Shown here: positions 11,601-33,016 of the stretch, piece after piece
Numbering within the stretch: the first letter of the stretch is position 1
Layout of the letters: each line of letters starts with the position of its first letter
Made by a program: the position numbers and the translations under genes
The notes under the pieces: generated by a model
The model's database searches: none
What the model saw: the letters and a program-made list of their open reading frames with translations, nothing else
What the model was told of the DNA's origin: nothing
From: a virus
Virus record (IMG/VR): IMGVR_UViG_3300009149_000140
Location: 1-34,700 of that record
Reading direction: 5' to 3' (one strand)
DNA: 34,700 bases

Positions 11601-11621
11601 ATGAGGCTTGGAGATACTACA

Positions 11622-12698
11622 ATGGCGTTACTTTGGGTTGATGGTTTTGAGAAGTGGGGCACTGGCAACGCTGTATCTCCAGCAGCTACAGTTGCCTCAA
11701 AGTATAAACTTGCTGGTCCTGCTGGAATGGATATTGTTGCTGGTCGTTATAATGGCTACGCTCTTATGATGGATGACACTTCAGCATACATTCAAACACC
11801 TCATATTCACAGCGGCAGCCCAGATAGAACTTTGATTTGCGGTCTTGCTTACAAAGCCGTCAGTTTGTATGCAGGTCAATTTGTGATGACCTTCGTGCAT
11901 CCATCCGAAGACGGAGAACTTAACACTTCCCAGTTCACTCTCAGGCTTAGTGCCAACACACCCAATTCTGGACTTTATATTACTCGCGGTAATACTACCC
12001 TGACTACCAACAATGATGCTCTTCTTACCAGCAACACGTGGGCATATATAGAGATGAAGGTGTATTGTCATCCGACCGCTGGTACATGTAATGTGTACGT
12101 TGATGGAACTGAGGTGATAAGCTACACTGGTAACACTCAGCATCGTAGTTACAATGAATCAACTACATACAGTGCTGTGTATCTTAGTGCTCGCACCACC
12201 TACGGTAAAGAACATCACTTTGACGATTTGTATATTGCTGACGGAAGTGGCAACACAGTCAATGATGTACTAGGCCCTTGTCACGTAGAATGCTTGTCTC
12301 CTACAAGTGATGCATCTGGAAACTGGACGCCTAACACAGGCAACAATATGTATGATAACGTCAACTCACAAGAGGCAGACAGTGACTTTATCTATACTAG
12401 CGCCAGTGGCAACCAAGCAGTGTTTGAGCTTGACAATCTTTCTGCCAACGTTGCTGGCGGGACTGTTAAAGGCATAATGTTGAACGCCGAGTCAGAGCAA
12501 ATTGGCAACAGTATTATGTATGCTAAAACTCTAACGCAGAACGGATCGGGTAACACGGTTCAACACACTGGCAACTTCATGCCGGGTACAGACGGTGTGT
12601 CTTTAAGTCACACCGTAATTATGGAAGATGATCCAGATGGCAACGCATGGTCGCTATCTACTGTTAATCAGTTACGTGCCGGTGTGGAGGCGTCATAA
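11622..12698 (+). CDS. Lectin-like tail fibre protein, copy A
   Basis: A 358-residue protein that I read as a concanavalin/LamG-like beta sandwich, the fold of many glycan-binding fibre domains. The start is ATG 11622 behind GGAG (11610-11613). An in-frame ATG at 11601 directly abuts the hairpin, and the downstream paralog begins the same way (MALLWVDGF here, MALVWCDGF there), which fixes the start. Shared blocks are AYIEMKVYCHPTAGTCNVYV and FDDLYIADGSGNTVNDVLGP, matching the 'EMKV...GTVEVRINGxxV' and 'DDxYVxDGSG' strands of the fold. The C-terminal third is a separate beta domain shared with the paralog (VKGIMLNAE, MEDDPDG). A role in receptor contact is inferred. Confidence 0.72.
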   Translation: MALLWVDGFEKWGTGNAVSPAATVASKYKLAGPAGMDIVAGRYNGYALMMDDTSAYIQTPHIHSGSPDRTLICGLAYKAVSLYAGQFVMTFVHPSEDGELNTSQFTLRLSANTPNSGLYITRGNTTLTTNNDALLTSNTWAYIEMKVYCHPTAGTCNVYVDGTEVISYTGNTQHRSYNESTTYSAVYLSARTTYGKEHHFDDLYIADGSGNTVNDVLGPCHVECLSPTSDASGNWTPNTGNNMYDNVNSQEADSDFIYTSASGNQAVFELDNLSANVAGGTVKGIMLNAESEQIGNSIMYAKTLTQNGSGNTVQHTGNFMPGTDGVSLSHTVIMEDDPDGNAWSLSTVNQLRAGVEAS

Positions 12699-13771
12699 TG
12701 GCTCTTGTATGGTGTGATGGTTTTGATGGTTACGGGGACACAGATAACACTGCCCCCGCCCCTACCGATGTGCTCGCTGATAAGTATTCTACTGTCAACG
12801 AAGAGACTTATCTACGTATTAAAAGCGCTGCTCGCACTGGTAGTTGGTCTATGCTTATGAACACTGGAACAACGACTCAGGGTTACTTTATTACTGATGC
12901 TGTTGTTACTGGCGACACATGTATAGCGGGTATAGCCTACTATGCAAAATACGTATCTTACGCATACTACCATCAACGTTGGCCTCTTCTCGTATTCACA
13001 AACACTGATGGTGACGCAAACGTTGAATTGCTATTCGCTGGTGGTCACATGTTTGTGTGTGGTCCGAACCGCACTTATCTTGGTGGCTGTCGCGCACCAG
13101 TAACCATCGCGAAATTCAATTACGTAGAGATGAAAGTATACCATCATGCCACCGCTGGCACAGTAGAGGTACGAATCAACGGATGTCCTGTGTTTGTCAA
13201 GACTGGACTGGACACTCTCTACGCTAGTGCCAAGCCTACCGTTGCCGTTTCTGTAGGTGGTGCATACGACGCAGAGTACAACTACCTAACTCAGGTAGAT
13301 GACTTTTATGTATGCGACGGATCAGGAAGCGACAACAACGACTTTCTCGGACCCATCAATGTTGAAACTCTTTGGGCGGCTTCAGACGACACCGCTGAGT
13401 TTGCAACAACTGGCAACGCCAATTACAGCACTCATTACGAGCAGGTGATCCGTGAAGAGCGTGACGAGGCAACAGATTATGTTGAAGACGCAACAACTGG
13501 TAACACCGACATCTTTGGCATGGACGCCGCTTCAGTATACGACAGTGTAAAAGGTGTTATCGTCTGGGGTGCAGTGCAATACGACACTGCCACAGCCAAC
13601 TACAGACTGTCTCTTGAAAGTAGCAACACCTCTACATACAGTTCTAACGCAGTTTGTCCTGCTAGCGTTGAAATCCATTCGTTGGTTGTTGAGAATGACC
13701 CAAATACCAGCGCTGCATTTACAAGCAGCGCCCTCGACAGCATTCTTTGTGGCATCGAAGTAATCGCATAG
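12698..13771 (+). CDS. Lectin-like tail fibre protein, copy B
   Basis: A 357-residue paralog of the preceding gene, started by a TAATG overlap. It keeps the opening MALVWCDGFDGYG, the central NYVEMKVYHHATAGTVEVRI strand pair, VDDFYVCDGSGSDNNDFLGP, and the C-terminal SVKGVIVWGAV and VENDPNTSAAF blocks, while the loop regions between them have diverged almost completely. This conserved-core, divergent-loop pattern is what is expected of duplicated receptor-binding or decorating domains. It also carries more Cys. Whether both copies are in the same virion cannot be told from sequence. Confidence 0.72.
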   Translation: MALVWCDGFDGYGDTDNTAPAPTDVLADKYSTVNEETYLRIKSAARTGSWSMLMNTGTTTQGYFITDAVVTGDTCIAGIAYYAKYVSYAYYHQRWPLLVFTNTDGDANVELLFAGGHMFVCGPNRTYLGGCRAPVTIAKFNYVEMKVYHHATAGTVEVRINGCPVFVKTGLDTLYASAKPTVAVSVGGAYDAEYNYLTQVDDFYVCDGSGSDNNDFLGPINVETLWAASDDTAEFATTGNANYSTHYEQVIREERDEATDYVEDATTGNTDIFGMDAASVYDSVKGVIVWGAVQYDTATANYRLSLESSNTSTYSSNAVCPASVEIHSLVVENDPNTSAAFTSSALDSILCGIEVIA

Positions 13772-19653: not shown

Positions 19654-19982
19654 TGGCTAAGAAGTGCCAGAAGTGCCGCGAAGGAAAGAAAACCAACATG
19701 GAGTCATCACCCACCCGCCCGCCTCGCGGATCGATCCGCAAGGCTAAGCGTGATGAGATGAGGCGTCAGAAGAAAGAACGCATGAGGAGCGTGAGGCAGG
19801 AATCACCCTCACCCTCCAAAGAACCGCATGAGAGCGGCGTAGAGCTTAGCGGTAGCAAGGCAATCAGCCAGAGCGTCGTGAGCGTTATCAAACTGAATGT
19901 CGAGCCGCTTACACATGGACACAAGGTTCAGGAACGGGAAGGGATGTTTACGTCCGTGCCAGACGTAGAGATCATTGATTGA
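19653..19982 (+). CDS. Small basic protein, 3' half antisense to the exonuclease gene
   Basis: A 109-residue reading frame starting by a TGATG overlap with the SPFH gene. The first about 50 residues are very basic with a CQKCREGKK start and Arg/Lys-rich helix (KAKRDEMRRQKKERMRSVRQ), resembling small nucleic-acid-binding phage proteins. From codon 53 on (19809-19982) the frame runs antisense through the exonuclease 3' end, which carries a conserved catalytic motif. The later residues may therefore only be read-through to the next available stop. No convergent terminator is obvious. The gene is supported by coupling and position, not by recognised homology. Confidence 0.5.
   Translation: MAKKCQKCREGKKTNMESSPTRPPRGSIRKAKRDEMRRQKKERMRSVRQESPSPSKEPHESGVELSGSKAISQSVVSVIKLNVEPLTHGHKVQEREGMFTSVPDVEIID
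19721..19744 (+). repeat. 24-nt imperfect palindrome in the convergent overlap zone
   Basis: GCCTCGCGGATCGATCCGC continues to AAGGC. A perfect 14-bp palindrome (19726-19739) is flanked by GCCT/AGGC with one mismatch. It lies inside the basic ORF, 65 bases before the 3' end of the exonuclease gene. There is no T-run. It could be a site for a symmetric protein or merely coding sequence. Confidence 0.3.
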
Positions 19983-20411
19983 TGCCCCGAGCAGCATTGT
20001 GTCACGTGGGTGCGACTGCCAGTAGGTATTGAGACCTTCCACTCCAAGCCAATAGATGAGGAAGCCTCTCTCGAATCCCCAGTTGTGGGCCAGAGGCACC
20101 ATCCTCTTTCCGTAGGGCAACTCACAGTTGTTCCACCACTCGACGAACAGATCAAATCCCTTCTCTTGCGACACGCAGTCAAGTAATGACTCCGCACTGA
20201 TACCGTGCTTTTGTGTCGCCTCTTTGCTAGCCCTCTCTGGGTATTCAGGTCGCATGTTGAGGTAAAACGGCTTCATCTTTTTGTGCGGCTCGAAGTGCTG
20301 ATCTAGCGGAACACATGCGATCTGAATGATCTCGTTGTAACCACACAGCACCCCGGTTGTCTCGACATCTACTGCACACAGGATATGTCCGTTCATATTA
20401 AGTAAGCTCAT
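19809..20411 (-). CDS. DEDDh 3'-5' exonuclease
   Basis: A 200-residue DnaQ-fold exonuclease, possibly proofreading or DNA-processing in the phage replication module. Exo I is AVDVETTG (D15, E17). Exo II is LAHNWGFERGFL (N110, with E114 where the family normally has Asp). Exo III is HDALAD (H178, D183), the DEDDh type. The FE instead of FD at Exo II is unusual and could alter metal binding. The gene starts in an ATGA overlap with the upstream diphosphohydrolase-family gene, and its C-terminal end overlaps the convergent basic ORF. No polymerase domain is attached. Confidence 0.87.
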   Translation of the reverse strand: MSLLNMNGHILCAVDVETTGVLCGYNEIIQIACVPLDQHFEPHKKMKPFYLNMRPEYPERASKEATQKHGISAESLLDCVSQEKGFDLFVEWWNNCELPYGKRMVPLAHNWGFERGFLIYWLGVEGLNTYWQSHPRDTMLLGASINDLYVWHGRKHPFPFLNLVSMCKRLDIQFDNAHDALADCLATAKLYAALMRFFGG

Positions 20412-20779
20412 TCAGCCACCTTCGCCGCTTTCTTATCTGCCCAATACTTCATCCTCTCGTAGAAGACCTTCTCATCCATGACTGGCTTGTCGCCGTGGTT
20501 AAGCTCGGCCAACGCCGATAGGTTCCATACTGCATGGGCCAGATGCGAACACCCCGAGTCCTCGTCATAGAACTCACCGTCGAAGAAATACTGAAGGTGT
20601 CTGAAGCAACTGTTGATGTATTCGTCGTCTGGTTTGTTGCCAAGTCGCCAGTTACCTTCGTTGTACTTGTTAGCCCCAAACTCTTTCACACGGGCAACCG
20701 CTTCGGTCATCCATTTGAATGACCTCATGAAATAACTAAGCTTCGGTTTATTTTCATTGTATCGTAATGCTTCAGACAT
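20408..20779 (-). CDS. dATP/dGTP diphosphohydrolase-family (DUF5664-like) protein
   Basis: A 123-residue protein with the pattern of the phage family annotated as dATP/dGTP diphosphohydrolase N-terminal domain: LRYNENKPKLSYF, then EFGANKYNEGNWRLGNKPDD, YINSCFRHLQYFFDGEFYDE, DSGCSHLAHAVWNLSALAEL. The helical E/D/H pattern suggests an all-alpha NTP pyrophosphatase-like fold related to MazG, adjusting nucleotide pools during replication. It overlaps the primase-helicase gene end by 8 bases and the exonuclease start by 4, so the three form one minus-strand operon. Enzyme activity is inferred from family annotation. Confidence 0.75.
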   Translation of the reverse strand: MSEALRYNENKPKLSYFMRSFKWMTEAVARVKEFGANKYNEGNWRLGNKPDDEYINSCFRHLQYFFDGEFYDEDSGCSHLAHAVWNLSALAELNHGDKPVMDEKVFYERMKYWADKKAAKVAE

Positions 20780-23528
20780 CGTTACCTTCTTTCCTAAGTT
20801 GTTTACCGGATCTAATATACCGGGCGCTGGGTTTTGTGCTCTTGTTAAATGTGAAGTTTCCTATTATTGTTTGATTGAGATTTGGACATCGTCCTAACAG
20901 ATAGTGCTCTGATAGTTTAGATTGGAGGGTCCGTCCTTTTTGCCACTCCTCTACAACGTGAGGTTCCAAGGTGGCAAAGAAACGTGTTTGGAATTCTGTT
21001 AATCTTATCGCTACTCCCGGAATCTCGTAGCAGTTCTCTTCGATAAACGCTGTCAGAGAATCGATATTGTTGTCAGCAGCTTCCAGTTTTCCACGGGTCT
21101 CAATGATAGGAAGCATCAAACGCCCGGTAGCTTCAGGGACGTTGTAGTCCATTAAAGTCCGCATGAAGTGTGGCCCCTCTTCCTTCAGCAGCACATACAA
21201 CCGCTCTCTTGGTATCTCCTCCTCCAACCCTGATACACTCATAGCTGTTATCCTAGTGTCTCCAGGGAACACAGGCAGACTACTACGTTCATTAGACACT
21301 TGTACGAAGTGAAGGGTACTGAGGACATCTCTCACAATTCCACCTTTAGGATGAATAGAAATAGACGTCCCTGTCACCCATTCTTTAATTTTGTTGTATG
21401 CTGCCGATCCAGCGCGTGCTACATCTACTTCATCAATGACCGCTAGTATTGCCTCTTCCAACTCTGAGTTGAAGCCACCTACAGACGTTAAGGCTCTGTC
21501 AGCTTTGGCAACTCCTCTAGTGAGAAGAAACTCTAACGCTTCGTGGAACGATGACTTACCGCAATTCTGTGGACCATACATAAACAGATAGGGTAGTTTG
21601 CCGTAAGGGTTCTGGAACATACATGCTATCCACGCAGTAAGATAGTCACCACCTGTTCTGATGTTCCAGTCTTGGCACCAAGGCAAGTCGTCGATGTACT
21701 CATTCAAGTCCCTGCCACAGTGCTCCATCACACGATTCCAAGTAGGGTGAACTGGATGCTCGCCTTCATTAAGCTCAATAGGTTCATAGCGAAACTGGGC
21801 TCCGTCTCGATTCCATAGTCGCCCTCCTGGATACTCAGGTTGGAATGGATGCTTTACCAACGTCCACGCCTTGAAGATTGCACTTCCCAGAATTGGATCA
21901 ACTTTAGGACACGTCTGTGACAAGTATGATTTGATATTTTCTCGTGGGTGTTCTACCCAGTCACTTTCATCATTCTTTAGTGCCCAAGAATCAAACTTAT
22001 AGCTTCGTCCAGCCTTAACTTGCAACGCACGGAATTGATCGTCTAATTCGGACCACATCATTTCGTTTTCTATATCTTCATCAGGCGTCTCAATTGCATC
22101 TGTTAGGAGTATCTCCCAGCCCTTTGCAGTTTTGACATATCGAGGAAAGTCTTTTTTCTCGTCTTTACGTTTCTTTTCTATGGTTAGGACAGTCTGCTTC
22201 CCTTTGGTGTGCAGAGACAGCGTTCTACCTTCTATGTTATCTGGCAGGTTTGTGTTTTCAGCTTTCAGTAGCTTCAATGCAGCTTGGAGGTCTTCCACTT
22301 CGTCGAATAGATATCCTTGCTTTTCGTCGGTCCCTTCATATCCATTACTGGACAGACAGATTTGCTTCAGGGTAGCTGGTGAGTTGTAGGCAATATGCGT
22401 CCACTTACCATGCGAGTCCCAAAGAGGGTCTTCAGTCGTGCCTTCGCCAAAGCGATACACATCGAATGCCCCATTAGGTTTCGGACGCATGAAGACATTG
22501 GGTTTACCAGGGTCGGTATCGCCCGAGTTGGTGTTGAATAACCCGCGTAGTGGAGTTCCTTTCTCTTCCATCATGTCATAGACATACTTCAGGCCAGCAG
22601 CGTGACCCTGCCATAGGTGATGGTCATGAACCCACAACGCGGTATGCCCTGTGCCTTCTAACTCCTCAAGTATTTTCAAGTGGGTCTCGTCGAGCGGGAT
22701 CTCCGCAACTGCCTGCGTCATTTCATCAAGCTCATCGCCCTTGGTCTCTTCACCATTGGCATCCCATCCCTTTACTCTGACTTTGCTTCGCCCGCCGCTG
22801 GTGACTTCTATGTGGTCCCGCCAGTTCGGAGGGATATGGTCGGCTGTCAGATGTTGGGTAGCTGGTTTAACCAACTCATAACCTCGGTTCTCCTTGGTCA
22901 TGTTGACGTGCCAGATCCACATGATGAGACCCTTGCAGTCAACGTTGGTATCGATGTTCAATCCTGTATGCTCAGCAATCAAAGGTATAAGGGAACGGGC
23001 TACTGCTGAGTGCTCGACATGGTTATTCGCGATTGGGTACGGCTCCTTGAACCAGACATACACGTGACGACCGTTGCCGCGAGTAGAGCGGATTACTTCG
23101 AGCCACGGTACGTCTATATTGTCAAGCTTCTCGATCTCTTCTGGAGAGATACCTACATCCTCGTTATGATCCAGAAGAGAGTCGAAGTCGAAACCTACTC
23201 CAATTGAGCGTTTGTTTCGCCAATCCCACCAACTTGTGCCAATAGCCTGTATCCTCTTTGGAATCGAAAACTTGACTGGAGGATCACTGTAGTTTGGCTC
23301 AGTTCTGGAGTTGTATGGCCATCTCACTGGTCCGAATACTTCTCCACCTTCCTCGAACATGTTCGAGTCGCCAATCTTCACACCCCCTGGTTTGCAATTG
23401 ACTTGCGTCTCTAGGGTGCTGGGGTGCTCCCCCCAACGAGCTATTAGTTCTGGGTTGTTGTGTTCTTTTGACAAGACGTTATTATAGTACGTCTTAAACG
23501 CTGTTGTAACTGATGGATTCTTACGCAC
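20772..23528 (-). CDS. Primase-helicase (AEP-like primase fused to SF3 helicase)
   Basis: Replication initiator/helicase of 918 residues. I choose GTG at 23528 because GGAG (23535-23538) sits 6 bases before it; a TTG at 23540 would add 4 residues and have no such site. Counting from the TTG, primase-like motifs are GVGFDFD (D118, D120), STRGNGRHVYVWF (H159) and NIDTNVD (D197/D201), as in archaeo-eukaryotic primases. The C-terminal helicase has Walker A GPQNCGKSS (about 656-664), Walker B ILAVIDEVD (D703, E704) and a motif-C-like FVQVSNE. The layout is that of D5/P4-type primase-helicases of phages and plasmids. It is the first gene of the minus-strand operon, read from the divergent inverted-repeat region. 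Confidence 0.87.
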   Translation of the reverse strand: MRKNPSVTTAFKTYYNNVLSKEHNNPELIARWGEHPSTLETQVNCKPGGVKIGDSNMFEEGGEVFGPVRWPYNSRTEPNYSDPPVKFSIPKRIQAIGTSWWDWRNKRSIGVGFDFDSLLDHNEDVGISPEEIEKLDNIDVPWLEVIRSTRGNGRHVYVWFKEPYPIANNHVEHSAVARSLIPLIAEHTGLNIDTNVDCKGLIMWIWHVNMTKENRGYELVKPATQHLTADHIPPNWRDHIEVTSGGRSKVRVKGWDANGEETKGDELDEMTQAVAEIPLDETHLKILEELEGTGHTALWVHDHHLWQGHAAGLKYVYDMMEEKGTPLRGLFNTNSGDTDPGKPNVFMRPKPNGAFDVYRFGEGTTEDPLWDSHGKWTHIAYNSPATLKQICLSSNGYEGTDEKQGYLFDEVEDLQAALKLLKAENTNLPDNIEGRTLSLHTKGKQTVLTIEKKRKDEKKDFPRYVKTAKGWEILLTDAIETPDEDIENEMMWSELDDQFRALQVKAGRSYKFDSWALKNDESDWVEHPRENIKSYLSQTCPKVDPILGSAIFKAWTLVKHPFQPEYPGGRLWNRDGAQFRYEPIELNEGEHPVHPTWNRVMEHCGRDLNEYIDDLPWCQDWNIRTGGDYLTAWIACMFQNPYGKLPYLFMYGPQNCGKSSFHEALEFLLTRGVAKADRALTSVGGFNSELEEAILAVIDEVDVARAGSAAYNKIKEWVTGTSISIHPKGGIVRDVLSTLHFVQVSNERSSLPVFPGDTRITAMSVSGLEEEIPRERLYVLLKEEGPHFMRTLMDYNVPEATGRLMLPIIETRGKLEAADNNIDSLTAFIEENCYEIPGVAIRLTEFQTRFFATLEPHVVEEWQKGRTLQSKLSEHYLLGRCPNLNQTIIGNFTFNKSTKPSARYIRSGKQLRKEGNDV

Positions 23529-23557
23529 TGGTGCCTCCAAGGTATATTTCTTTCTAT

Positions 23558-23716
23558 CTACCTATACTGTAGGCAAATTGACGAAAATACTCCACACAAA
23601 ATGGAAATTATGTGAATATATTTAATATAATGCCGTCTCGTGACGAATTTGGAAACTTTGCTCTTTTTTCCATTTTGTGTGGAGCAAATCAGGAAATTTG
23701 CCTACAGTATAGATAG
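23558..23716. repeat. Nested bipartite inverted repeat, divergent control region
   Basis: Two pairs of inverted 18-mers share one centre at 23637. The outer pair is 23562-23579 and 23695-23712 (AATTTGCCTACAGTATAG on the right, its complement on the left), extending to 23558/23716 with one mismatch. The inner pair is 23590-23607 (CTCCACACAAAATGGAAA) and 23667-23684. Outer and inner boxes are separated by 10 bp on both sides. The 10-bp spacers and the AT-rich 59-bp core are not symmetric, so selection has kept only the boxes. The region separates the minus-strand primase-helicase operon from the plus-strand ParB-like gene and probably holds mirrored promoters/operators, possibly an origin or ParB site. 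A weak TGGAGC-N17-TACAGT match is visible on the right-hand side. Confidence 0.9.
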
Positions 23717-23717
23717 G

Positions 23718-24656
23718 ATGAGTGAAATACAACAACAAATACCTATGACTCTGATAGATAAGCCACAGTTAGCACTGCGGTCTGTGAAGCGTTCTGCGCC
23801 GGAGTATGCCGAGCTTTGCGAGTCCGTGCGGAAAGATGGCATCCTCCAACCCATCCTCGTGCGGACTCGTGACGGTGGACGCTACGAGATCGTAGAGGGA
23901 TGGCACAGATATGAGGCAGCGAAAGAAGCTGGTCACGAAAGCATTCCTTGCCTGATACGTGATCTATCTGACATGGATGTGATGTTAATACAAGTGAAAT
24001 GCAATGCTATCCGGCCCACCACATTCTCGTTCGAGTACGCCAGACGCCTAAAATTATTGATGGAAAAAGGCTTGACACTGAGCGAGTTGTCAACTATGAT
24101 AGACAAGAGTCCGCAATGGATCAAAGATCAAATACAACTAAACCGCGTATGCGAAGAGGCTCGACCAGCCATAGAAGATGGTAGGATCAAGCTGAAAGCT
24201 GCGTTGGCGTTGGCCAATCTACCGAGTGAGATCCAGACACAATTCGTGGATGACGCTCTGGCTTTGCCAGTAGGTGAATTCACTGAGAGAGCACAGACTG
24301 CTAAACGCGATTTTCAAACCTACTTGTTAAAGCAGCAAGCAGACGATAGAGATTCGGGAGCAGCGAGACCAACAATCCGAGCATTGAATGTTCTGAAGCG
24401 TGAGTCACTTGACCCCAAAGCAGCCAAGGAAGTATTGAACAGTGTAAAGGCAAAGACGCCTCTTGACGGGTGGATCGCATGTCTGTCATGGATGTTCCGA
24501 TTAGATCCTATAACAGTTGAACAACGAAAGAACAAACGGGAGATTGAACTACATGAAAAGTTAGCAACAAACGAAGAGTACCGACAACTTAATAGAGAGA
24601 TGATTAAAGAGTTTGTGAAATCTAAAACTAAAACTGAAACTGGAGATTCGAAATGA
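23718..24656 (+). CDS. ParB/KorB-like DNA-binding protein
   Basis: A 312-residue protein. The N-terminal ParB/Srx-type domain has VRKDGILQPILVR, GGRYEIVEGWHRYEAAKEAG and IPCLIRD (about residues 30-85). A helix-turn-helix follows (TLSELSTMIDKSPQWIKDQI, about 115-135), then helical and Lys/Glu-rich regions. Such proteins bind operators or partition sites; some related domains are CTP-dependent switches. I take ATG 23718: an in-frame GTG at 23640 lies inside the inverted repeat, and the resulting extra N terminus looks non-protein-like. No Shine-Dalgarno spacing fits, so it may be leaderless. The adjacent inverted repeats are the obvious candidate binding sites. It is coupled to the next gene by ATGA. 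Confidence 0.82.
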   Translation: MSEIQQQIPMTLIDKPQLALRSVKRSAPEYAELCESVRKDGILQPILVRTRDGGRYEIVEGWHRYEAAKEAGHESIPCLIRDLSDMDVMLIQVKCNAIRPTTFSFEYARRLKLLMEKGLTLSELSTMIDKSPQWIKDQIQLNRVCEEARPAIEDGRIKLKAALALANLPSEIQTQFVDDALALPVGEFTERAQTAKRDFQTYLLKQQADDRDSGAARPTIRALNVLKRESLDPKAAKEVLNSVKAKTPLDGWIACLSWMFRLDPITVEQRKNKREIELHEKLATNEEYRQLNREMIKEFVKSKTKTETGDSK

Positions 24657-25339
24657 GTGGTAAAGAACTGACGCCGTTTTCAAAGAAGATGGGTTTGCCC
24701 GCTGTCAACGTGGAGTCCTTGGAATCCTTGGACGAAGTCGCGAAGGGCTCGGACTTCCTGCCTCGTATCCAGCTTATCACCAAAGGTAAGTATGTGGACA
24801 CAGGCAAGATCAAGCCCGGTCATTGGGGCGTCCCTCTTCCCGGAGGCGACGAGATCGAAGACCTCGGTGAGAAGATCGACGTTGTGCCGTTGGATTACCG
24901 TCCGAAGGCTTTGGACGTCAATGACAAAGACGCCATTGTCGCGGTGTATGACACCTCTGATCCTGAGTTCCAACGGATCAAGCAAGCTCCGAAGAACTCG
25001 GGCTGTATGTGGGGTCCGTCATTCCTGGTGCTCGAACGCAGCACAGGCAAGTTGTACGAGTTGTTCTTCGGCAACAAGTCTGGTCGTAACGAGGCTGGCA
25101 AGCTGAAGCCCTTCTTGCTGTCCCGCGCCCCTGTAAGCCTGGGAATCCGTTACAAGAAGATGCCTGAGTATGGATGGCATGTTCCGGTAGTCACCAAGTG
25201 CTCGGAGCCCTTCGATCTTGACGCCATTAAGGTAACGGAAGAGCAGGTCGCCAAAGAGCTTGAGGTGTTCCAGAATCCTGAAAAGGGTGCTGAGAAAGTC
25301 GAAGAGAAAGAAGCCGAGACGCAAGGCCGCGCACGCTAA
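24653..25339 (+). CDS. Conserved replication-module protein, likely abundant
   Basis: A 228-residue protein with patterns I recall only from uncharacterised phage genes: SDFLPRIQLITKGKYVDTGK, IKPGHWGVPLPGGDEIEDLG, VPLDYRPKALDVNDKD, APKNSGCMWGPSFLVLERS, then an acidic/charged tail (EKGAEKVEEKEAETQ). Codon use is much more biased than in its neighbours and similar to the capsid gene, and a strong terminator follows, both suggesting high expression. Abundant, acidic-tailed proteins in replication modules are often single-strand DNA-binding proteins; that is only a hypothesis, and no OB-fold motif can be claimed by eye. Confidence 0.6.
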   Translation: MSGKELTPFSKKMGLPAVNVESLESLDEVAKGSDFLPRIQLITKGKYVDTGKIKPGHWGVPLPGGDEIEDLGEKIDVVPLDYRPKALDVNDKDAIVAVYDTSDPEFQRIKQAPKNSGCMWGPSFLVLERSTGKLYELFFGNKSGRNEAGKLKPFLLSRAPVSLGIRYKKMPEYGWHVPVVTKCSEPFDLDAIKVTEEQVAKELEVFQNPEKGAEKVEEKEAETQGRAR

Positions 25340-30008: not shown

Positions 30009-31751
30009 ATGAATGTACCGGAGTCGCTGAAACTCATCGCCGACCGTGATCCCAGTTTATGGATGTCCTTCTTTGAATATTTTCAGTTTTTCGAGAAGCA
30101 TCACTACATGCAATATGGTAAGTCGTCGATACAGAAAATAAACGATTTTGTAAGTTTGTTTTTCACAGCCTGTCAGAGAGACGACTATTTGCCAGCCAAG
30201 CAGTACCTCGCTAACCTGATTCAGTGCGGTCATATTTTGCAGCACTTGGTAGCCGTCTCCTCGTATCGTACAACCAACTCGGTGCTAGACGCCTCCCTTA
30301 TGATCGAAGGCAACGTACCCAAGATAATGACGTTGCAAAATCCACGGTGCGATTTGCAACTAAATCAGGAGAAGCTGTTTGACATCGACCCGCAATCGGC
30401 CTCCATCTGGTACATGATGTACTTACTGGGTATTTCGGCCACGACAGCAAAGACGTATGCGAACATGCACCGTCACCTGGAACTGATGGATGAGAGATGG
30501 ATACCTCCTCACAATTCTGTTAGCGGATTGTACTTCGGCTGCACGTACATCAATCCTGGTGCTGTGCGTCGGGTGAAGTCGATTATGAACAAAGGTATAA
30601 AAGCCAAAGGGGTGCCCACGTTCACGAACAATCCTGACCCAAAATCCATTGCGATTGTAACTGAGCGTTGGCATAGAAACCACGCTGTGTACAAGTCGCA
30701 GTCACCTCTACTTGAGCAGCTTAAGGACGATTACAAGCTCACCTTGGTTTGGACCAACCCGCCCGATCAAGTGCCACCCACGATCGTCAAGGATTACTTC
30801 GATGACGTGTGTCACATGTACTTCAAGCCTGACGGCTCAATGGTCATCCCGGATAAAGTCAAGAACAATGACTTCGCGATGGTCTACTATCCCGATATCG
30901 GAATGTCGGACGAAAGCATTTGGATGTCGAACATGAGGATCGCTCCGATCCAGGCTGTAGGTTATGGCCACCCTGACACAACCGGCGACAACAATGAGAT
31001 CGACTACTTCATCGGCGGGCACGTCGAGAAGGACGCCGGAGCCGCCTACTCCGAAACACAGATCCTCATTCCTGGTCTGGCTCAAGAGCCTGCATGGCCC
31101 TCGGTGGAGCGTCAGAACAACTACATCGACGACGGTATCGTTCGCATCAACTGCGTGTGGGGACCGGACAAATACAACCACCCTCTACTGATGATGTTGG
31201 CAGAGATCAACAAAGCTGTCTATAAGATCAACCCTGACTCCAAGCATGAATTCAACATGTATGGTAGCCCTGGTTTGAATCGCTATGCCGCTCTGCCCGT
31301 CTTCAACCACGATGTAAAGACACTGTTACCGAACGCCAAGATTCATTCTCAGTGGGAGTATGTTGACTACATGCGAGAGGCCGAAAAGAGTGACTTCGCT
31401 TTGAACTCGTTCCCCTTCGGCTGTTATAATGTGTTGGTAGAGTCCTTGTGGATGGGCCTTCCATTCCTGTCGCTGGTTGGTGACAGATTCTATAACAAAG
31501 CCGGTGCGTACCTGAACGAGCGAGTTGGGATGGAAGAAAACAACTTCCACGATCCTCAAGGCATGATAGCCAAAGCCGCCGAGTTGATTACCAACCCGGA
31601 AGCTCTTAAGAAGCAGCGAGAGCATCTTGCCGCCCTCGATCTTAAAGAGCGATTATTCACGCTAGAGGGTAAACACTTCCTCGGGGCTGTAGACCACATC
31701 CTCGCAAATCACCCGATTAACGACACTACGCTGATAGGAGAACAACAATGA
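30009..31751 (+). CDS. GT41-like (OGT/HMW1C-type) glycosyltransferase
   Basis: A 580-residue enzyme. The N-terminal about 200 residues are helical, without obvious TPR repeats. The C-terminal part carries GT-B motifs of the OGT/HMW1C family: DFAMVYYPDIGMSD (about 288-301), RIAPIQAVGYGHPDTTG (about 310-326), IDYFIGG (about 331-337), and the nucleotide-sugar site FPFGCYNVLVESLWMGLPFL (about 468-487), which aligns with the 'FPFg.tN.iVd....GlP' segment. These enzymes transfer hexose or GlcNAc to Asn, Ser or Thr of proteins. It is unusual in a phage. The preceding C-methyltransferase and the Ser/Thr/Asn-rich virion proteins suggest a modification pathway (inference). ATGA couples it to the phosphoesterase. 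Confidence 0.8.
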   Translation: MNVPESLKLIADRDPSLWMSFFEYFQFFEKHHYMQYGKSSIQKINDFVSLFFTACQRDDYLPAKQYLANLIQCGHILQHLVAVSSYRTTNSVLDASLMIEGNVPKIMTLQNPRCDLQLNQEKLFDIDPQSASIWYMMYLLGISATTAKTYANMHRHLELMDERWIPPHNSVSGLYFGCTYINPGAVRRVKSIMNKGIKAKGVPTFTNNPDPKSIAIVTERWHRNHAVYKSQSPLLEQLKDDYKLTLVWTNPPDQVPPTIVKDYFDDVCHMYFKPDGSMVIPDKVKNNDFAMVYYPDIGMSDESIWMSNMRIAPIQAVGYGHPDTTGDNNEIDYFIGGHVEKDAGAAYSETQILIPGLAQEPAWPSVERQNNYIDDGIVRINCVWGPDKYNHPLLMMLAEINKAVYKINPDSKHEFNMYGSPGLNRYAALPVFNHDVKTLLPNAKIHSQWEYVDYMREAEKSDFALNSFPFGCYNVLVESLWMGLPFLSLVGDRFYNKAGAYLNERVGMEENNFHDPQGMIAKAAELITNPEALKKQREHLAALDLKERLFTLEGKHFLGAVDHILANHPINDTTLIGEQQ

Positions 31752-33016
31752 CCAAACTGAATAACGATATGGCTGCCGAAATCAAAGATCATATAGCTCG
31801 AAAGCAGCTAACGCAAAAGGAAATTGGTGCGAAGTTTGGCGTCAGCCGCTCTGTAATTTCTGACATTGCGTGTGGGCGTGTCCACAAGGATGTGAAACCC
31901 GCGATGGAAGCCAGCGAAGAGGAAGCCGAAATCTTCAAGCTTCAGTCGGAGGTTGCTCACTTACGTGAGGAACGCAACCTTGCTAACCGACGTTTGAAGC
32001 AAGCCGCCAAGACGCAAGGCTTGTTCCAGGCAATCGCCGAAGAGATGGAAGCTAAGGTCACGCCTATGTCAGCGTTACCTAAAGCCCGGCCAGTATTCGA
32101 GCCAACACACGACACCAAGAGCGAACATCTGGTGATGCATTTGTCGGATGGTCACTTCGATCAGGTAGTGACAAAAGATGACACGGGTGGGTTGGAGACG
32201 TATGATTTTCCAATCGCTATGGCACGTGCCGAGCGACTGGTAGATGCCACTCTTAAATGGACGCAGGAAACTCTTGCTCCTCAGTTCAAGTTCCCTTCGT
32301 TGACCATCCTGTCCTACGGCGACCACACGAGTGGTGAGATCCATGGCGCGGCTCAACGGTCGTATTTCCGCAACATGTTCAAGAACTGTCATGCCATCGG
32401 CCAGCTTCAAGCCCTGATGATCCGTGACTTGGCTCCTCATTTCGAGCAAGTCAACGTGGTGTGTGTCCCTGGTAATCATGGGCGTCGAAGCCAGAAGAAA
32501 GATTACAATGGACCTCACGACAACTGGGATTATCTGGTGGCCTTGACCGCCAAGCTATATTGTAAGGATTTGGCCAACACCAATTTCTGCATTCCAAATT
32601 CTTTCAGTTGCAACGTTGATATTGACGGTGTTGGCTTTCAGATTTTCCACGGTGACGATGTAAAGTCACAACTTGGCATCCCCTGGTACGGACTGGAAAA
32701 GAGGCGGCATCGAATGATGGCGTTGGAGAATGTTCGACAAGGCATCCCAGTACGCTACTACTGTTGTGGTCACTTCCATCGTCCCGGTAGCACCACCGAG
32801 GTCAATGGTGAGATGCTCATCAATGGTGCGTGGCCCGCGAGCGATGCATACAGTTACAACGCCTTTGGTGGCTTTACTGAACCCTCCCAGTTGATCCATG
32901 GGGTCAATAAAAAATACGGAATAACTTGGAGACTTCCGGTCAAAATCCGCTGCGACTATGAAGGTCGTGGACCACGACGGTATAAACTTGCAGACATGGA
33001 TGATGTATCTATTTAA
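31748..33016 (+). CDS. HTH-coiled-coil-metallophosphoesterase fusion
   Basis: A 422-residue protein. Residues about 6-45 form a helix-turn-helix (LTQKEIGAKFGVSRSVISDI), and about 57-90 a coiled coil (EEEAEIFKLQSEVAHLREER). Residues about 125-350 are a calcineurin-like phosphoesterase with all metal motifs: DGH (D134, H136), GDH (D192), GNH (N243, H244), H301 in FHGDD, and GHFH (H342, H344). DNA-binding and phosphoesterase parts are thus joined in one chain. It could cleave nucleotides or nucleic acid at a specific site, or remove phosphate during the modification pathway. It is coupled by ATGA to the glycosyltransferase gene. Confidence 0.85.
   Translation: MTKLNNDMAAEIKDHIARKQLTQKEIGAKFGVSRSVISDIACGRVHKDVKPAMEASEEEAEIFKLQSEVAHLREERNLANRRLKQAAKTQGLFQAIAEEMEAKVTPMSALPKARPVFEPTHDTKSEHLVMHLSDGHFDQVVTKDDTGGLETYDFPIAMARAERLVDATLKWTQETLAPQFKFPSLTILSYGDHTSGEIHGAAQRSYFRNMFKNCHAIGQLQALMIRDLAPHFEQVNVVCVPGNHGRRSQKKDYNGPHDNWDYLVALTAKLYCKDLANTNFCIPNSFSCNVDIDGVGFQIFHGDDVKSQLGIPWYGLEKRRHRMMALENVRQGIPVRYYCCGHFHRPGSTTEVNGEMLINGAWPASDAYSYNAFGGFTEPSQLIHGVNKKYGITWRLPVKIRCDYEGRGPRRYKLADMDDVSI

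Follow-up and report, generated by a model that had tools for sequence, protein, structure and literature searches.

Twin boxes between the primase-helicase and ParB-like genes of an uncultured phage group: a probable back-to-back pair of genome-specific promoters

The window, i.e. the whole stretch of DNA analysed here (34,700 nt, positions 1 to 34,700 of the IMG/VR record IMGVR_UViG_3300009149_000140), contains two 18-bp boxes, each present in two copies, in the intergenic region from which a leftward and a rightward operon depart (Table 1). The preliminary description of this DNA had placed these boxes between a primase-helicase operon and a ParB-like gene, and both gene identities are as claimed there, the primase-helicase gene lying on the minus and the ParB-like gene on the plus strand. 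The protein encoded by the second gene of the rightward operon was found in 15 of the 15 relatives searched; its structure model had a mean pLDDT of 57 and was therefore too uncertain for searching. Elsewhere in the window, the product of 30009–31751 is a relative of UDP-glucose:protein N-beta-glucosyltransferases (under the curated cut-off), and two adjacent genes of a single family (phrog_2448, function unassigned; 11601–12698 and 12698–13771) probably arose by tandem duplication. In three other contigs (L027, L023 and L031) the primase gene is split near residue ~350 by an intein-like insert of ~950 bp.

Table 1. Features of the divergent region and its flanking genes (window coordinates, except for the intein-like inserts, which are given for the contig named).
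Feature	Position	Strand	Remarks
Box 1 (AATTTGCCTACAGTATAG), left copy	23562–23579	−	bears the -10-like TACAGT of the predicted primase-side promoter
Box 1 (AATTTGCCTACAGTATAG), right copy	23695–23712	+	bears the -10-like TACAGT of the predicted ParB-side promoter
Box 2 (TTTCCATTTTGTGTGGAG), left copy	23590–23607	−	covers the -35 position of the predicted primase-side promoter and extends upstream of it
Box 2 (TTTCCATTTTGTGTGGAG), right copy	23667–23684	+	belongs to the predicted ParB-side promoter
-10-like TACAGT, left arm	23566–23571	−	inside box 1
-10-like TACAGT, right arm	23703–23708	+	inside box 1
Spacers, 10 nt each	23580–23589 and 23685–23694		between box 1 and box 2; mostly unmatched
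Core, 59 nt	23608–23666		between the box 2 arms; AT-rich, no symmetry
Primase-helicase gene	20772–23528	−	first in leftward operon; putative GTG start at 23528, placed by alignment with relatives
Leftward operon, remaining genes	19809–20779	−
dATP/dGTP diphosphohydrolase N-terminal-domain protein	20408–20779	−	leftward operon
RNase-T-like exonuclease	19809–20411	−	leftward operon
ParB-like gene	23718–24656	+	312 aa; ParB_N and HTH_ParB domains
Rightward operon, gene 2	24653–25339	+	228 aa; no known family
Intein-like primase insert, L027	4081–5034	−	in frame
Intein-like primase insert, L023	8033–8980	+	in frame
Intein-like primase insert, L031	1151–2106	−	frame broken

The earlier account of the geometry, namely perfect inverted copies of both boxes about a shared centre at 23637 with 10-nt spacers, is correct to the base. 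Among inverted repeats with arms no more than 400 nt apart, the two boxes are the longest perfect ones of the window; the longest inverted repeat seen in 100 dinucleotide shuffles was 15 bp, and two repeats of at least 10 on one centre were absent from all 100. Each box occurs twice in the 34.7 kb, even when three mismatches are allowed. The full arms constitute a 63-nt inverted repeat (79%) separated by 59 nt. The only dyad in box 2 of the window is a short one (TCCA-N7-TGGA), and an Rfam search of the box region gave no match. At 23581–23589 lies a further motif (TGACGAAAA/TTTTCGTCA), which is present in 5 of 15 intergenic regions (0.1 expected) and is possibly the site of a conserved factor.

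To follow the boxes in related genomes, searches with the ParB-like and primase proteins were performed, which yielded a near-copy of the window (L014) and 14 relatives; the window and these 14 relatives form the discovery set of 15 genomes. Searching with the 228-aa protein provided 13 more testable contigs, which were used as a held-out set. No close named phages were found in the relative searches, and a single GTDB genome scan detected no more than weak ParB relatives. In nearly all relatives the ParB-family gene and the primase gene lie on opposite strands facing each other, with a gap between the primase and ParB-like protein matches of 65 nt in L069, 177 nt in the window and ~980 nt in L066. 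When the arms were read outward, the best match of each was its partner in the same genome in 15 of 15 discovery-set genomes (mean score 52 within and 15 between genomes, between-genome maximum 26), and none of 100,000 permutations reached this own-partner score. Since the arms in this test were marked by eye, in some cases ahead of an extra small gene (downstream of the left arm in L020 and L021 and of the right arm in L029), a second run took its windows from the start codons alone (11 of 12), and the held-out set was tested as well. There, the twin was present in 10 of 13 contigs, eight by fixed windows and two, L064 and L066, in which an extra gene shifts its position, and absent from the three most diverged ones (L077, L078 and L079); in L069 the whole region measures only 65 nt and the twin match runs into the coding starts. 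In L029 (6661–7001), where the extra gene separates the right box from the ParB-like gene, the latter has a weaker box copy of its own (CTATAATATAGAG).

The identity between the two arms of a genome is distributed in two blocks: it is ~0.85 over the 0–20 nt upstream of the box end, 0.39 at 25–29 nt and 0.70 at 30–39 nt, compared with 0.24–0.36 between genomes. The spelling of the boxes differs from phage to phage while the two-block layout is common to the group, and clear similarity of boxes between phages was seen only in close kin, e.g. L020/L064/L066 or L033/L059. The related contigs, in which the twin is family-wide and self-matching, support the earlier claim of selection, and we conclude that the boxes are very probably under selection.

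The arms could also be alike mainly as the by-product of an inverted duplication that gene conversion or template switching has kept uniform, in which case the exact letters would matter little. In line with this, the matching tract of L020 spans 77 bp almost continuously and runs through the ribosome-binding site and the start codon. However, the identity averaged over genomes is concentrated in two blocks of constant position and drops between them, the arms are usually 350–900 nt apart in the genomes compared, and unlinked further copies (see below) carry the same letters. We regard this as a very unlikely main cause of the likeness, to which recombination could nevertheless add.

The position and composition of the boxes point to promoters. 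Over 30 arms, box 1 showed a mean -10 likeness of 5.05 versus 2.65 ± 0.38 in shuffled boxes (0 of 2000 shuffles), with a weak match in L026, L030, L018 and L033. With each arm read outward, box 2 lies 10 nt upstream of box 1, over the -35 region; the promoter scan found no TTGACA 16–18 nt upstream of the -10-like elements at the boxes, and box 2 occupies the -35 place. This generic scan did not call the box sites and called a TATAAT in the core, which is at chance level. In the window, the right box 1 ends 5 nt ahead of the ATG of the ParB-like gene with no clear ribosome-binding site there, so that the ParB-like message is predicted to be near-leaderless. On the other side, 33 nt separate the end of the left box 1 from the putative GTG of the primase-helicase gene, which is preceded by GGAGG (23534–23538) and a predicted leader of ~31 nt. 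In the set of 15 genomes, an in-frame ATG without a ribosome-binding site follows 0–3 nt past the marked box end on the ParB side in 9 of 15, and the primase side mostly has a 20–30 nt leader with a GGAG(G) site. These start codon positions fit a predicted transcription start just downstream of the -10 element, which would place the starts of the window at about 23715 (plus strand) and 23559 (minus strand). The twin-box layout thus appears to be the anatomy of a promoter. Our preferred reading, which we hold to be probable on the basis of sequence comparison, is that the boxes represent two copies, arranged back to back, of one bipartite, genome-specific phage promoter. Box 1 would supply the -10 region and ~10 nt upstream thereof, and box 2, over the -35 region, would substitute for a TTGACA element. 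One copy would drive the primase/exonuclease operon leftward with a normal leader and ribosome-binding site, and the other the ParB-like operon rightward, with the transcription start adjoining the ATG. The copies share a spelling that is private to each phage and is kept alike within its genome, the likely cause being a trans-acting factor that recognises the boxes: an activator, a repressor or a specificity factor acting with RNA polymerase.

Within the 15 loci of the discovery set, no box 1 was found outside this region. Searches of whole contigs (62–125 kb) revealed two to three box copies per contig. An exact further copy was located ~40 kb away in G011 (124.7 kb) and G012 (87.9 kb), in both cases directly preceding a gene of one family of ~180 aa, and G006 and G009 contained two copies only. 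Five more contigs were checked upstream of the same ~180-aa gene: G020, G016 and G013 showed a clear match to their own boxes, G003 shared only TGAACCTACA, a weak match (score 20) within the background, as the arm of another genome scores 22, and G021 had no box copy there. Thus, a further copy precedes this head gene of the structural operon in 5 of 7 testable contigs, of which G011 and G020 are not fully independent because they are close kin with similar boxes. The operon starting at the ~180-aa gene contains terminase, portal, scaffold and major head genes in G003; this family (function unassigned) also heads the structural operon in L081 (3363–3899), L085 and L101 (738–1250), and its gene stands directly behind the further box copy in several contigs. 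As the window begins at its major head gene (position 38), a further copy belonging to it would be expected ~13 kb beyond its left end if the gene order is the same. Of the divergent two-operator switch considered in the preliminary description, the control region for both directions is supported by the related contigs, but the box is not confined to it.

A replication origin, with paired initiator sites around an AT-rich unwinding element beside the primase-helicase gene, was also considered for the inverted repeats. In the window, the box 2 arms flank 59 AT-rich nt, and in 14 of 14 discovery-set relatives the DNA between the twins contains inverted repeats above every shuffle, some of them inverted pairs around a centre of some 60–70 nt. 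Most relatives possess a repeat-rich, origin-like region of 250–800 nt where the window has its core; in L026 (6149–6976), L033 and other relatives this non-coding region is full of inverted repeats, often genome-specific words arranged as inverted pairs around an A-rich centre. Lying beside the primase-helicase gene, the between-twin region of the relatives may be a fair origin candidate. The core of the window, however, has no such repeats (score 12 versus a shuffle mean of 11.8), and the multiple repeated sites seen in the non-coding region of relatives are absent from it, each box occurring only twice. L069 and L070 are also compact between the twins, indicating, together with the window, that the twin persists without room for origin-like repeats. 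In the relatives the boxes stand apart from these repeats, near start codons, are -10-like and recur ~40 kb away before another operon. The GC skew, which had been proposed as a check for an origin, merely tracks gene direction. An origin made of the boxes themselves, as suggested earlier, is hence a most improbable reading.

On the preferred reading of a bipartite promoter, the boxes would be recognised by a protein that co-evolves with them. One candidate is the ParB-like protein, which could repress its own and the primase promoters as KorB does on plasmid RK2: the gene accompanies the primase gene in nearly all relatives, its profile matches structures of Spo0J, ParB, Noc and KorB, and the arrangement at RK2 PkorA, with OA overlapping the -10 element in its upstream half and OB immediately upstream of -35 (PMC11790492), is much like that of box 1 and box 2. 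Against this, the ParB recognition helix (KSP.WI.DQ type) is near-identical in the window, L026, L028, L029 and L030, the boxes of which match one another at or near the between-genome background, which makes box reading through this helix unlikely. Palindromic symmetry in the boxes is weak and takes varying forms: box 1 scored 3.88 versus 3.43 ± 0.16 in shuffles, with variable spacing, and a dimer-type palindrome was not retained. A ParB-binding site, as put forward in the preliminary description, was accordingly rejected as the main reading, and operators of the ParB-like protein are considered quite unlikely. A search for sigma region 4 gave no match above the cut-off; the sub-threshold match in the window (31805–31867) is a helix-turn-helix at the start of an exonuclease-like gene (31748–33016), and similar sub-threshold matches occur in large open frames in most relatives. 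For T7-type polymerases, PF00940 was unmatched in 17 contigs, and control genomes gave no match either. The similarity of the boxes correlated weakly with that of ParB, the primase and the 228-aa protein alike (0.16–0.30), so that no reader is singled out.

Immunity operators, i.e. main promoters bound by the lysogeny repressor of each phage, are one concrete form of the promoter-class explanation, in which the private spelling would reflect immunity type. In Cluster A mycobacteriophages, sites are known whose genome-specific sequence follows the repressor (PMC6550527), and the number of promoter-linked copies, two or three per genome, would suit operators. Yet the genes searched in the window, which is an incomplete genome, included none recognised as a repressor or integrase gene, and a structural operon is not the usual direct target of a lysogeny repressor. 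We therefore judge such operators to be unlikely.

Returning to the bipartite promoter, the data suggest a promoter code private to each phage. That this code, almost wholly changed between related phages, is read by a phage-encoded specificity factor outside the known sigma factors and the T7-type polymerases is a tentative proposal that we consider possible rather than probable. If this proposal is true, the divergent pair and the structural promoter would constitute much of the transcription programme of the phage. The boxes indicate how an uncultured phage group may run its transcription from very few promoters. The letters of the putative promoters change more quickly than the three core proteins that were compared and yet stay matched within a genome, which offers a natural series for finding the box-reading protein and for studying how a phage can alter its promoter specificity and remain functional. 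In practice the box also serves as a marker, having led to the predicted operon-head promoter of the structural genes in other contigs.

The -35 element of T4 middle promoters is replaced by a MotA box. Like the T7-type and T4 middle (MotA-dependent) phage promoters, the set proposed here would be recognised by a factor of the phage itself; it differs in its small size, with no more than two or three such promoters on a contig, of which two are arranged back to back. The RK2 promoters controlled by KorA and KorB (PMC11790492) share with the boxes two unlike sites per promoter, one over -10 and one next to -35, and the involvement of a ParB-family protein. In RK2, however, there is one operator set for a given KorA and KorB, whereas in the phages the spelling changes and the ParB helix-turn-helix does not, and no gene resembling korA, which RK2 possesses, was identified here. 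In Cluster A mycobacteriophages (L5, Bxb1 and Trixie), the spelling of operators and stoperators tracks the phage DNA-binding protein (PMC6550527), and, as for the boxes (15 of 15 genomes), there is one spelling inside a genome and a different one between genomes. Those sites are 13 bp long, numerous and mostly off promoters, in contrast to the bipartite sites of ~45 nt described here, which lie at operon heads and number only two or three. Cluster O mycobacteriophages have divergent leaderless promoters predicted to be of the SigA type (PMC4351075); as proposed for the window, they depart from one AT-rich intergenic region with a message that begins at the start codon, but there both members of the pair are leaderless, whereas here this is predicted for the ParB side only.
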